A stretch of 26,397 bases of DNA, taken from a virus. This document shows, piece by piece, positions 14,306 through 24,984 of this stretch (the stretch's first letter is position 1; each line of letters begins with the position of its first letter). Both the position numbers and the translations under genes were made by a program. The stretch spans positions 1 to 26,397 of the IMG/VR virus record IMGVR_UViG_3300032736_000516; one strand, written 5' to 3'. The notes under the pieces are model-generated. The model saw only the letters and a program-made list of their open reading frames with translations, was not told the origin of the DNA and did no database searches.

Positions 14306-14908
14306 TTAGACATGAGATGTTACCTCTTGAGGCGGCTCTACGATACCACGCTCGGTTTCAAATTGCAAGATCATTGCGCAAGCTGAGTCGTAATTAGCCG
14401 ATGCGTAAACTGCCCAGCGCTTAGAGTAAGCTCGCTGTCTCGCCTCTGCTGGCGAAAACTGCTCATCATCAGTTATCTGGCCAGCAAGCTCCAGCAGCAG
14501 GAAACGTTCAAGCTCTGAATGCTTGTAGTTGCCGGTTGATTGCTTTGGAAGCGGGGTCGCTTGCTTGATGGAGGGTTGAAATGGCAGGCCATAGTAGTAG
14601 CTTTCGATTCGTTGAATTGCTTCCTTGAAGCTCCAGCCACGTACACGCATCAAAAGATCAATGCCACTCCCTCCACCACCTTGCTGGTTCTTCCCTCCAC
14701 AATGAGTACAGTACCAACCGGCTGGGCCATCATCTTTCATCCAGCGAAAGCGATCAGTACCGCCGCAACAGGGGCATGGTTGATGGGCACCGTTTAATTG
14801 ATAGTCCCTTAGCCCACCAATAGATACCAGCAGGTGGGGCCAGTGACCAGATGCTTTGCTGAGGATGTCCCACGATGGCTTGCGGGAGAACGCCTTATCA
14901 AAATCCAC
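14306..14908 (-). CDS. Orphan primase-type zinc-ribbon protein, 200 aa
   Basis: Residues ~44-75 carry CPCCGGTDRFRWMKDDGPAGW followed by YCTHCGG: the CxxC...CxxC zinc ribbon with GGTDRF that marks phage primase-helicases (T7 gp4 / P4 alpha type). Then come GGGGSGIDLLMRVRGWSFKEA and a helical C-terminus. In full primases a TOPRIM or polymerase core and helicase follow; here the protein ends at 200 residues. It could be a template-recognition subunit acting with a separate catalytic protein, or a remnant. It lies in a minus-strand operon with a winged-helix protein. Confidence 0.8.
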   Translation of the reverse strand: MDFDKAFSRKPSWDILSKASGHWPHLLVSIGGLRDYQLNGAHQPCPCCGGTDRFRWMKDDGPAGWYCTHCGGKNQQGGGGSGIDLLMRVRGWSFKEAIQRIESYYYGLPFQPSIKQATPLPKQSTGNYKHSELERFLLLELAGQITDDEQFSPAEARQRAYSKRWAVYASANYDSACAMILQFETERGIVEPPQEVTSHV

Positions 14909-17889: not shown

Positions 17890-20370
17890 ATGCCAGCAAG
17901 ATCCAGGGCTAGCGCCTATGCCGACCGGGCGGCGGCCAGTGGCCTGGGCCTGCTGGCAGATGCTGCGATCTTGCAGAAGCTCAAGCGCCGCGCCAATTCA
18001 GCGTTCGACGTGCAAGCGGCTGAAGCAAGAATGATTCAAGACTTGCTTCCGTATCAGAGAGACTTCGCCACCGACTTTGATCACAAGTACGTAGGCTTTT
18101 GTGGTGGCTATGGGTGCGTCGCTGGTGAGACTCTCGTCAACGGCACACCCATTAAGGAATTAACTACACAGCCAATTCAGGTTCAGACTCTTGCTGGTCC
18201 GAGCTGGGCGACTCCTGCATACAAGAAAGGAGTTGCTCCACTTTATCGGGTTCGGACCTCAGCAGGACAAGAAGTTCTGGTAACCAAAGACCATCGTTTT
18301 CTGACGCCGTCTGGCTGGCTGGAATTAAAGCACCTGCGGCCAGGGTCTCTGATTGCTGTGCGTGATAGCACCTGTGAAGAGACGCAGAAGGGAAAAGCCA
18401 CAAGTTGGAATGTCTCTGATCACGAGGGCTCTCGTTCATGTGATGAATTACCCAGCCCTTCGGAAGTTTTTTACCAAGAGCAAGCTCAACAGTTCTCCGG
18501 CCCCAGTATTTGCCATGATCCCTATCAGAGCTGTCAACATGGTGCCTGCTCCGACTCGCAGCGTTTTTCCCCCCAGGTTGACCGCCTTGGCTTTTCAGTT
18601 CTACATGCTGGGCTAGAAAATTTTTCATCGTTCCTTCGTGAACTCCAAACCGACGAGCCACATCACGAATACTCACTGCATCAGTCGTGTAATCATGAAT
18701 TGCGGCATCGCGGCAATCGTGAAGACGCTCAATTCCAGTTTCATGATTGCTTGGCTTTTGAATGCCGGCAGCATCCATCTCAAGCTTTATCTTTACAGAT
18801 GTTACGCCGTAAACGCCTGACAAATAGTGAAGCGAGTAACCACGGCGATAGTCATTTTTGCACGTCTCCCGCTGCTCTTCGGTCAGCAGCGCCCATGGCC
18901 CTCGACGCGCCGTGGACATGCGGCTTTGCTTCAGAACTCTCATCACAGTCCCGTAGCTCCTCTTCGTCAGCTCAGATATTTGCTTTGGGCCCATTCCAGC
19001 CTTGTATGCCTCGGAGATCGCCCAGTGCTCGGCTTGAGTCAGAATTGCGGCCATTGTCAAAAGTGTGCAGGAGTTCCCAGTATAGCTGGTCAGCCGTGGA
19101 AGACATCGACTATGTTCGCACAGATGACTTCTACGATCTTCATGTTCCTTTTTGGAATCACTACGAAGCCCATGGCATCCTGCACCACAACTCTGGTAAA
19201 ACTTATACTTTGGTTATAAAACAGTTACTGCTGTGCTTTCGCTCACAAGGATTCACGCACCTGTTCCTTGAGCCTACCATCCCGCTGATCGATGACGTTG
19301 CGCTGCCAACCTGGAACCTGATCCTAGAGAAGTATAGCATTCCCCATACTTTCAGGGTATCACCTAGGCCAGTCTTCAAGCTTCTCTTGCCTGATGGCGA
19401 AACACCGATCCTCCTTCGTTCAATGGAGAACTATGAACGATTGATTGGTGTAAACGCTGCAAGCATCGCTTCTGATGAAACTGACACAACTCGCCAAGAA
19501 GTTGCAGAGAAAGCGATGATTAGGCTGCAAGGCCGTGTTCGTGTTGGCAACTGCCCTCAGATTGTTGCAGCTTCGACGCCCGAGGGCTATGGCTTCATGT
19601 ACACCTTCTTTGAAGAGCAAAAGGCAGACAATAAGAAATTGTATCGAGGGAAGTCTGAGGATAATCCGTATCTTGATAAGGACTTTGTTGAAGACCTGAA
19701 AAGCAAGTATCACCCGCAGCTTGTCAAAGCTTATCTTAACGGTGAGTTTGTAAACCTTGAGTCAGCGACTGTCTTCTACGAATTTAACAGAGAGAAGCAT
19801 ACGACTGGCGTATTCTTACCGGAGCCTGCCGAGAGAATTGTATTCGGCGCTGACTTTAACGTTGGCCAGTGCCATGCTCTTTATGGAGTCGTCAGAGCTG
19901 GTCAAAGAGGGCAGGAGCTGCACTGTTTTGCAGAGTCGAAGGTGGCCGATACCTTTGGCTTGGTAACCCACCTCCAGCACAAGTATCCTCGGCACCTTGC
20001 TGCTGGACTGATTACTTGCTATCCAGACGCTAGCGGTTCTCATGATTCAACTTCGTCAACACAAAGCGATCACGAGATTCTTCGCGGTGCTGGCGTAAAA
20101 GTTGTAGCAGAGCGCAAGAACCCTTATATTGCAGAAACGCTTGCTCATGCCAATGTTCATATGCACCGCAATTTAGTATTCCTTAACCCAACCACATGTC
20201 ACGATACTATTAACGCGGCCGAGCGCTGGTCCTACGACTCCAAGACATTGAAACCATCAAAGGGTGGTGCTGTCGATTATTCACACCCTGGAGACGCTTT
20301 GCGCTATTTGCTCTGGCAGGTCTTCCAGCGTGCTGGCTCTAGAGCTGGTCATGGCGGTCGCTGGAGATGA
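17890..20370 (+). CDS. Phage terminase large subunit interrupted by an intein
   Basis: The ATPase-nuclease packaging motor. The precursor is 826 residues; removing the intein (residues 76-434) leaves 467, normal for TerL. The Walker A motif is split: GFCGGYG (69-75) before the intein and SGKT (435-438) after it. Walker B is SIASDE (D529, E530), followed by the coupling segment VAASTPEGYG. The RNase H-like nuclease acidic residues are D655 (FGADFNVG), D713 (YPDASG) and D802 (HPGDALRYL). Without splicing the P-loop is broken, so packaging ATPase activity should depend on protein splicing. The portal gene follows. Confidence 0.95.
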   Translation: MPARSRASAYADRAAASGLGLLADAAILQKLKRRANSAFDVQAAEARMIQDLLPYQRDFATDFDHKYVGFCGGYGCVAGETLVNGTPIKELTTQPIQVQTLAGPSWATPAYKKGVAPLYRVRTSAGQEVLVTKDHRFLTPSGWLELKHLRPGSLIAVRDSTCEETQKGKATSWNVSDHEGSRSCDELPSPSEVFYQEQAQQFSGPSICHDPYQSCQHGACSDSQRFSPQVDRLGFSVLHAGLENFSSFLRELQTDEPHHEYSLHQSCNHELRHRGNREDAQFQFHDCLAFECRQHPSQALSLQMLRRKRLTNSEASNHGDSHFCTSPAALRSAAPMALDAPWTCGFASELSSQSRSSSSSAQIFALGPFQPCMPRRSPSARLESELRPLSKVCRSSQYSWSAVEDIDYVRTDDFYDLHVPFWNHYEAHGILHHNSGKTYTLVIKQLLLCFRSQGFTHLFLEPTIPLIDDVALPTWNLILEKYSIPHTFRVSPRPVFKLLLPDGETPILLRSMENYERLIGVNAASIASDETDTTRQEVAEKAMIRLQGRVRVGNCPQIVAASTPEGYGFMYTFFEEQKADNKKLYRGKSEDNPYLDKDFVEDLKSKYHPQLVKAYLNGEFVNLESATVFYEFNREKHTTGVFLPEPAERIVFGADFNVGQCHALYGVVRAGQRGQELHCFAESKVADTFGLVTHLQHKYPRHLAAGLITCYPDASGSHDSTSSTQSDHEILRGAGVKVVAERKNPYIAETLAHANVHMHRNLVFLNPTTCHDTINAAERWSYDSKTLKPSKGGAVDYSHPGDALRYLLWQVFQRAGSRAGHGGRWR
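18115..19191 (+). mobile_element. Intein in the TerL Walker A motif
   Basis: 359 codons. Block A: CVAGETLVNGT with catalytic Cys1. Block B: TKDHRFLT with T57 and H60, then GWLELKHLRPGS. Block F: FYDLHVPFWNHYEAHG. Block G: ILHHN with penultimate His and terminal Asn359, then Ser+1 of the extein. These are the residues needed for class 1 splicing. N- and C-splicing parts take about 85 and 35 residues. The ~235 residues between are rich in Ser, Gln, His, Arg and Cys, have no DOD or HNH motif, and read as the reverse side of another gene. Insertion is exactly in the P-loop, a favoured intein site. Confidence 0.93.
18164..19054 (-). CDS. HNH homing endonuclease encoded antisense within the intein
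   Basis: 296 codons from ATG 19054 (TTG at 19060 is also in frame). Three helix-turn-helix segments: residues ~21-44 (GMGPKQISELTKRSYGTVM), ~72-98 (GYSLHYLSGVYGVTSV) and ~126-151 (VSIRDVARRFGVHEGTM). The HNH core is at ~199-231: KGWVIHHMNESPRDQRHSNL with H204, H205 and N217, then H227 in SLHRCYH. The core ends near 18362, where sense coding for the intein's block B region begins. The last ~65 codons (18164-18361) overlap that region antisense. A weak -10 (TATACT, 19084-19079) precedes it. The protein is expected to cut intein-less TerL alleles. Sense and antisense codons are out of register by one base. Confidence 0.85.
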   Translation of the reverse strand: MAAILTQAEHWAISEAYKAGMGPKQISELTKRSYGTVMRVLKQSRMSTARRGPWALLTEEQRETCKNDYRRGYSLHYLSGVYGVTSVKIKLEMDAAGIQKPSNHETGIERLHDCRDAAIHDYTTDAVSIRDVARRFGVHEGTMKNFLAQHVELKSQGGQPGGKNAASRSRHHVDSSDRDHGKYWGRRTVELALGKKLPKGWVIHHMNESPRDQRHSNLWLFPSASLHRCYHAQQSETLAAGALIPASQTASENDGLWLPELLVLLRSEPDKVEQLLSCMQESPSSDQQESEPELAV

Positions 20371-23987: not shown

Positions 23988-24341
23988 ATGGCCGTTCCCG
24001 AGCGCGTCAAAAACAAAATAAAAGAACTTGGGCTATCAGGTGTCAACAAGCCCAAGAAAACTCCTAGTCACGCTACCAAGTCTCATGTAGTGATGGCGAA
24101 AGAAGGAGACACCTATAAGGTGATTCGTTTCGGCCAGCAAGGTGTAAGCGGTTCACCAAGGAAAGAAGGGGAGTCGGCTTCTTATCGGGCAAGGCGGGAA
24201 GCCTGGTTCGCCAGGCATCGCAAGAGCATCGACAGGGGGCGCATGTCGCCGGCCTGGTGGGCCGCAACGACTAAATGGGCAATTTGGGGTGTTATGATAA
24301 GTGGTATTCTTGGCCTCGCCGGTCATGCGACCAATATTTAA
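23988..24341 (+). CDS. Conserved phage protein, DUF6321-like, 117 aa
   Basis: KSHVVMAKEGDTYKVIRFGQ QGVSG, then RHRKSIDRGRMSPAWWA and TTKW, match the small phage family with the core 'KSHVV-x-AKEGD-x-x-K-x-IRFGQQGV...KARH...NI-x-(R/K)G-x-x-(S/P)-A-x-(Y/W)WA'. I associate it with DUF6321. The usual proteins end at the TKW; here ~22 extra hydrophobic residues (AIWGVMISGILGLAG) follow, which may be read-through into sequence brought in by the neighbouring HNH gene. Confidence 0.8.
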   Translation: MAVPERVKNKIKELGLSGVNKPKKTPSHATKSHVVMAKEGDTYKVIRFGQQGVSGSPRKEGESASYRARREAWFARHRKSIDRGRMSPAWWAATTKWAIWGVMISGILGLAGHATNI

Positions 24342-24984
24342 CGAAAGAGTCTCCAAGTCTGGGAATGGATTGGCATGGCTTGCCACTTGCAATTGCGGAA
24401 AGGCAAGCCAATTTTCTCAAAAAGGAAATGCGATTCGCATGATTGAGCGAGGCGTTTGCCGCTATTGCAGAAAAGATTATCGCAGTGTCAAAGACGAAAC
24501 AATAGAGATATATCAAAACAGGGAAGGGCGCTGGTGCTCGGCTTGCAGCGGGTGTGGGATTGAACAACCGTACACGAGAAAAGATCACGCTAAGCAAAGT
24601 TCTTTGTCGGATTGGCAGTGCAGAAAATGTGTTCAGAGCGCCAAGGGCTTCTCTAGCAATCGTTCGGTTGGCCCTTTCCGAAGGGCTTACAATAAATTTC
24701 AAAAATCCGCAAATTCAAGGCAAATAAAATGGAATTTATCTTTTGAAGAATTTGAAAGTATTTATGACGGCTCTTGCGCTTTGACTGGGTGGCCGATAGA
24801 CATTGGTTTTGCTACAGTTACCGCAAGCTTGGACAGAGTTGATAGCAGCAAAGCCTATACCATTGATAATGTTAGATGGGTTCACAAAATGGTTAATATG
24901 TGCAAAAATCAATACGATGAAAAAAGTTTCATTGAAATGTGTACGGCCATTGCGATAAAAGCTGTAAATCGCCAAAAATGGTAG
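24325..24984 (+). CDS. Free-standing HNH homing endonuclease, 219 aa
   Basis: The ATG at 24325 overlaps the preceding gene by 17 bp (GTG 24301 is an alternative). The N-terminal half is a series of Cys pairs (CNCGK; CRYCRKDY; CSACSGCG; CRKC) forming probable zinc ribbons. The C-terminal half is an HNH variant: SCALTGWPI, then SLDRVDSSKAYTIDNVRW and the helix MVNMCKNQYDEKSFIEMC, typical of phage homing nucleases. It probably nicks or cuts related phages lacking the gene. It is AT-richer than its neighbours, which suggests acquisition, and it sits between virion genes, a usual place for such elements. Confidence 0.85.
   Translation: MRPIFNERVSKSGNGLAWLATCNCGKASQFSQKGNAIRMIERGVCRYCRKDYRSVKDETIEIYQNREGRWCSACSGCGIEQPYTRKDHAKQSSLSDWQCRKCVQSAKGFSSNRSVGPFRRAYNKFQKSANSRQIKWNLSFEEFESIYDGSCALTGWPIDIGFATVTASLDRVDSSKAYTIDNVRWVHKMVNMCKNQYDEKSFIEMCTAIAIKAVNRQKW

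Follow-up and report, generated by a model that had tools for sequence, protein, structure and literature searches.

Layout of the terL locus

The window analysed here is the whole of IMG/VR virus record IMGVR_UViG_3300032736_000516 (26,397 bp). It includes the gene for a terminase large subunit (TerL) whose Walker A motif is interrupted by an intein at GGYG^SGKT. Inside this intein, the opposite strand carries a gene for an HTH-HNH endonuclease. The features are as follows:

17890-20370, plus strand: terL (terminase large subunit), one open frame of 826 aa
17890-18114, plus strand: terL N-extein
18115-19191, plus strand: complete intein (1077 bp, 359 aa), from C1 to a terminal HHN followed by Ser+1
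18115-18369, plus strand: N-terminal splicing half (HINT) with blocks A and B (model pLDDT 94-98 for residues 1-80; alignment A2)
18370-19071, plus strand: sense interior, a domain-less linker (no Pfam match; predicted to be unstructured except for a helix at residues 115-128)
19072-19191, plus strand: C-terminal splicing half with blocks F and G, ending in HHN (alignment of invariant residues and structure model)
19192-20367, plus strand: terL C-extein
19079-19084, minus strand: putative -10 (TATACT) ahead of the antisense HNH gene, which in the window has neither a clear -35 nor a clear Shine-Dalgarno
18164-19054, minus strand: antisense HTH-HNH endonuclease gene, 296 aa from the ATG at 19054 (298 codons from the TTG at 19060)
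18926-19036, minus strand: HTH segment 1 (HTH_38 match; structure model)
18770-18880, minus strand: HTH segment 2 (structure model)
18605-18712, minus strand: HTH segment 3 (weak HTH matches; structure model)
18338-18463, minus strand: HNH beta-beta-alpha nuclease motif, GWVIHHMNE...NLWLF...H (Pfam HNH_3; alignment A7)
18167-18369, minus strand: C-terminal part of the HNH protein, dual-coded opposite the N-terminal splicing domain (confident helices; fourfold-site suppression)
18166-18164, minus strand: stop codon of the antisense HNH gene

Elsewhere in the window, a free-standing endonuclease VII or HNH-type gene (24301-24984, plus strand; PHROG matches) is located downstream of the portal and scaffold genes, in a position unrelated to that of the antisense HNH gene. 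An ORF on the minus strand (14306-14908) matches the N-terminal part only of DNA primase families (positions 17-100 of the 667 in phrog_510) and, judging from these matches, is possibly a fragment or a stand-alone domain.

The intein and its sense interior

The insert scores 43.9 bits with the Pfam Intein_splicing profile (cut-off 35.8). The splicing residues C1, T57, H60, H358 and N359 are invariant (alignment A6) and the block B TxxH, the terminal HN and Ser+1 are all present. AlphaFold2 predicts a confident HINT domain composed of residues 1-87 and 321-359 (pLDDT 92-98), whose neighbours in the PDB include the NpuDnaB (4o1r), Ssp DnaB and Mtu RecA inteins (E-values down to 8e-7). With blocks A, B, F and G, the key residues and the HINT fold, the insert would be assigned, from sequence and model, to the class 1 cis-splicing inteins. 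These results bear out the initial annotation, which had placed a complete intein in the TerL P-loop, and define its exact bounds as 18115-19191.

Residues 131-320 are modelled as a mostly unstructured linker (pLDDT about 32-47). The sense interior was submitted to a separate profile search, which returned no Pfam domain match and no match to any endonuclease; the initial annotation, which would have been contradicted by such a match, had likewise seen no endonuclease domain in the sense frame. A conventional endonuclease, fused in frame between the splicing halves, is absent from the intein of the window.

The antisense HTH-HNH gene

The antisense ORF is contained wholly within the bounds of the intein. 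Its product matches HTH_38, HTH_58, HTH_23 and HNH_3 in Pfam, all above the cut-off (for HNH_3, 27.7 bits against 24.8). The HNH residues H204, H205, N217 and H227 are invariant (alignment A7), as expected of a beta-beta-alpha metal motif. The structure model comprises three HTHs, a beta-beta-alpha HNH and confident C-terminal helices; a PDB search with the model fold gave no match below an E-value of 0.001. The original description of an uninterrupted ORF of some 296 codons, with three HTH segments and an HNH motif and lying entirely inside the intein, is thus correct. If the HNH gene of the window is recoded with random synonymous codons, a mean of 12.8 stops is expected in the sense frame (P <= 0.001). 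None is observed, and the openness of both frames is therefore not due to chance.

Distribution of the element

Searches with the intein and searches with the HNH protein lead to the same element: a terL intein with an antisense HNH gene and both frames open. About 170 loci have it, and the relative phase of the two frames is identical in all of them. The insertion of an HNH gene in antisense with both frames kept open, as first suggested, is therefore upheld; its presentation as a one-off event is not, and is replaced by a large class with one shared phase.

The subgroup to which the window itself belongs (class 1a) shows the same layout in its relatives, including two (L020 and L021) added by alignment extension. 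A further group (class 1b) was defined from three divergent terminases (L034-L036) whose inteins each contain an antisense HTH-HNH gene of their own. Class 2 includes cultured phages. In Pectobacterium phage Ymer, a 'hypothetical protein' is a TerL carrying an antisense-HNH intein, and seven more isolates are close to Ymer (Abuela, Sabo, Koroua, Amona, Taid, Pappous and Setonix, of which Sabo, Koroua, Taid and Setonix were dissected). In Pseudoalteromonas phage PHS3 (L076, KX912252), an annotated HNH gene lies antisense within a continuous TerL frame. The public annotation reduces the PHS3 TerL to its C-terminal part (L076, 1245-3368) although the frame actually runs through the intein; it is too short because the antisense HNH gene has been called on the opposite strand. 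A search of phage isolates made directly with the window HNH gave no match, and the isolates were reached via class 1b sequences. In genome_contigs, a pattern search revealed no HNH relatives at the sensitivity applied.

A scan with the Ymer/PHS3 nuclease (class 2) identified 241 relatives. Among the best 80 of these, all 80 are antisense in an open frame, in phase 0 and with 0 stops, while the other two phases hold 2-17 stops each; nearly all of these 80 also have the junction HHN^SGK[ST]. The scan with the nuclease of L034-L036 (class 1b) gave at least 569 relatives. Here, 77 of the best 80 are antisense in a long open frame, again in phase 0 with 0 stops and in diverse hosts; many of the 77 have an intein motif or Pfam match, the check having covered part of them. 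The host genes are not restricted to terminases, and include those for an AAA_24 ATPase (L193) and a DEAD/Helicase_C protein (L209). Two loci were set aside: one (L074) has a sense intein, apparently of the LAGLIDADG type, in another gene and the other (L075) an HNH gene outside any open opposite frame.

Some terminases show variations on this arrangement. Two (L142 and L158) have an altered Walker A motif (SSKT after the intein) with the intein still at the same position. Another (L179, 1163-4927, minus strand) is a single frame of 1255 aa with apparently two inteins, one with an antisense HNH gene and a second, downstream, with a large in-frame interior of the homing-endonuclease type.

The nuclease families of classes 1b and 2 are clearly homologous (hhalign E-value 2e-44) and that of class 1a is more distant (2e-5). 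Together with the shared phase, this sequence relationship suggests a single old nested ancestor, with repeated capture as another possibility. We also considered that the shared frame might simply reflect a permissive phase and rejected this. Phase 0 has no clear advantage in staying open, as fewer stops are often expected in phase 1, which makes shared ancestry the more likely explanation.

Selection on the two frames

At all 58 non-redundant loci the sense frame contains 0 stops, compared with 1.7-12.8 expected per locus on recoding the HNH gene with random synonymous codons (codon usage being taken from terL of the same locus); as the loci are related, P values combined over them are not strict probabilities. 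In the shared phase, sense position 1 is opposite antisense position 1. This geometry bars the nuclease from placing Phe before Ile, Met, Thr, Asn or Lys and, indeed, Phe-[IMTNK] dipeptides are absent from the nested nucleases (0/235 observed, 46 expected). In the class 1b scan the corresponding figures are 0/221 for nested nucleases and 3/8 for their free-standing relatives.

Read as HNH, the interior has a dN/dS of 0.02-0.35 where this can be computed (23 pairs), whereas the same DNA read in the sense direction gives 0.89-8.8 (23 pairs); the Nei-Gojobori method used ignores the overlap and distorts both frames, but the contrast is large and consistent. Substitutions at the three antisense codon positions number 527/373/1295 and are therefore concentrated at HNH position 3, which is sense position 2. 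The low values for HNH, set against sense values around or above 1, indicate that the nuclease is conserved and that the sense interior is a stop-free passenger. The initial interpretation was open to challenge from relatives with a broken antisense frame and a conserved sense interior. No relative combining a broken antisense frame with a full-length, conserved sense interior was found; the pattern is the reverse, with the antisense frame the conserved one.

The N-terminal splicing domain is encoded opposite the C-terminus of HNH. Its divergence at fourfold sites is 0.29 in inteins with HNH and 0.58 in mini-inteins without it, while in the C-extein, which serves as a control, the two are equal (0.57 and 0.60). 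In class 2, fourfold divergence is 0.40 in the N-intein compared with 0.69 in the C-intein. Since the suppression occurs only when HNH is present, the overlap between HNH and the splicing domain is constrained on both strands. The two genes share coding DNA (18167-18369) rather than simply adjoining, and the assumption that the HNH gene is confined to an inserted segment has to be abandoned.

Expression signals

Predicted promoters and Shine-Dalgarno sequences of the antisense gene were scored against synonymous recoding of the sense strand. In class 2 (45 loci) both are in strong excess (z = 12.0 for a sigma70-like promoter and z = 14.4 for a Shine-Dalgarno), as they are in class 1b (3 loci; z = 5.7 and 5.3, respectively). 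The class 2 promoter occupies a fixed place directly 5' of the antisense start, within C-intein codons (for example, TTGACA-N17-TATAAT in L114). There is no excess in class 1a (10 loci, including the window; z = -0.1 and 1.0), which makes expression of the nuclease less certain in this subgroup. A TATA[CG]T at the same offset is nevertheless found in 8/10 class 1a loci where 2.2 are expected, an observation made post hoc. Separate expression of the nuclease, as initially proposed, is thus strongly supported by predicted signals for most relatives and weakly, by a -10 alone, for the subgroup of the window.

Evidence for mobility

Relatives with and without the antisense ORF, which the initial annotation had proposed comparing, both exist. 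One (L037) belongs to the same type of phage but lacks the intein: it has an uninterrupted GGYG|SGKT, a TerL of 99% amino acid identity and about 95.4% and 95.6% DNA identity with the window on the two flanks. The bases flanking the insertion are GGG^TCTGGT in the filled allele (window 18114/19192) and GGA^AGTGGA in the empty one (L037 5000), with identical protein; these differences are perhaps due to short co-conversion. Other relatives have an empty site or mini-inteins of 447-477 bp at the same position. The Walker A motif is the insertion site throughout the 58 non-redundant loci.

The element and its hosts have not diverged in parallel. Between the window and L012, identity is 35% for the C-extein, 81% for the N-intein and 70% for HNH; between Ymer and PHS3 it is 23%, 56% and 50%, respectively. 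Empty, mini and full alleles at one site, with divergence incongruent with that of the host, are the properties of a homing element. From sequence comparison, the empty sites, the mini-inteins and the greater similarity of the inteins than of their host TerLs are compatible with homing by a separately expressed nuclease.

The mini-inteins are either deletion derivatives or ancestors; one (L004) has short matches, of only 20-23 bp, to both ends of the HNH insert. Several (L006, L018, L044 and L057) have in common an SPWxxF-like sense motif (compare residues 109-128 of the window intein). HNH-bearing inteins have this motif too, across from the codons of the HNH active site, and the structure model shows it as a helix. 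It is either a retained splicing-domain element or the remnant of a lost HNH.

Proposed mechanism and alternatives

We consider it highly probable, from the sequence evidence, that this is a homing intein with its endonuclease encoded separately, on the opposite strand. The sense strand would provide a TerL precursor from which the intein excises itself to restore TerL, the antisense-derived linker being tolerated as a disordered segment of the precursor. A separate promoter, located within the C-intein codons, would drive transcription of the antisense strand and so yield a free HTH-HNH nuclease. This would cut intein-less terL at the Walker A site, and repair from the intein-bearing copy would spread the element. 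Being a protein apart from the precursor, the nuclease would be produced at times and in amounts uncoupled from those of terL. This layout would come at the cost of dual coding, since sense stops have to be avoided in the nuclease gene and the codons for its C-terminus overlap those of the splicing domain.

Long antisense ORFs can arise by chance opposite coding sequences and, as both frames are open here, the antisense ORF might be a non-functional by-product of a sense interior that is the real, novel domain. We give this almost no credence and have rejected it on the basis of dN/dS, profiles and structure: the antisense protein has HTH and HNH matches above the cut-off and invariant catalytic residues, substitutions fall at antisense third positions (with sense dN/dS as given above), and the sense interior is unmatched by profiles and predicted to be unstructured. 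It is also very improbable that the antisense transcript or protein mainly regulates terL (as an antisense RNA or by HTH autorepression), with the nuclease activity secondary or lost. The predicted promoter does oppose terL in many relatives, the protein has three HTH segments, and in T4-like phages intron-encoded endonucleases are known to repress their own expression (PMC2988022). However, the catalytic residues of HNH are invariant, relatives with mini-inteins lack the HNH gene, and the coexistence of empty and filled alleles in near-identical phages points to mobility.

A less remote alternative, though still an unlikely one, is that HNH is a functional parasite housed in a tolerated linker and cutting elsewhere (for example, the genome of a competing phage or, as in intronless homing, beside the site), intein and nuclease spreading together by linkage only. 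The nuclease is separate, like free-standing phage homing enzymes, it has free-standing relatives, and no cleavage site is known for it, all of which would suit such a parasite. It is more difficult to explain in this way why the nuclease family is almost always inside inteins (77/80 in class 1b and 80/80 in class 2, for the best matches), why insertion in the terminases read is always at the same Walker A position, as if the nuclease defined the site, and why the phase is fixed and the C-terminus shared, which imply long co-evolution.

The wider set of loci probably represents a large group of inteins, found in phage terminase genes and in genes for other ATPases or helicases, with an independently promoted antisense HNH homing nuclease in a single phase. 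The common phase suggests that the nesting arose once, long ago, and the splicing-domain DNA would be truly dual-coded, with one strand specifying a HINT domain and the other, over the same base pairs, helices of the nuclease.

Significance and comparison with known systems

We found no description of an antisense endonuclease inside an intein in the open literature, most subscription papers being outside the scope of the search; the initial annotation, too, had known of no described case. This kind of mobile element is widespread, including in cultured phages, and apparently undescribed. It changes the way in which mobile inteins should be recognised, since some 'large inteins without endonuclease' may have been misread, and it explains misannotations such as the truncated TerL of PHS3 and the 'hypothetical protein' TerL of Ymer. 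The antisense layout is a way of expressing a nuclease independently of the late structural gene around it. Cases in which two conserved proteins are dual-coded in antisense over a long stretch are rare, and this class is a deeply sampled one; the cultured phages that carry the element allow direct tests of homing, splicing and timing.

Conventional homing inteins have a nested, in-frame endonuclease, as in those of the LAGLIDADG type (for example, PI-SceI and the Tli and Pho VMA inteins; PMC8966425). The present element resembles them in its HINT fold, its insertion in a conserved P-loop, the location of the nuclease gene between the splicing halves and the existence of empty and mini relatives. 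It differs in that the nuclease is outside the precursor polypeptide, on the opposite strand and with its own start, in most relatives with its own predicted promoter and ribosome site, and in that its gene overlaps splicing-domain codons.

So-called 'fractured genes', in which a free-standing endonuclease gene lies between the two parts of a split intein, also combine a phage-type intein with a nuclease encoded apart from the splicing protein. Their host gene, however, is divided into two, whereas the present intein leaves TerL as one uninterrupted frame and has its nuclease gene nested in antisense. Free-standing phage HTH-HNH endonucleases (Pfam HNH_3; PHROG 7545 and others) share the combination of HNH_3 and HTH and give distant sequence matches, but they are not nested in an open frame; the phase-0 frame opposite them is interrupted by stops, and they contain Phe-[IMTNK] dipeptides.

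The closest precedent is provided by nuclear group I introns of Didymium (Dsq.L2066 and Dir.S956-2), which contain separately transcribed antisense homing endonuclease genes (PMC9548176). As here, the endonuclease gene is on the opposite strand of a self-splicing element. In the introns, however, that element is a ribozyme in rDNA, so that the opposite strand need not encode protein, and the nuclease is a His-Cys box enzyme expressed by polymerase II.
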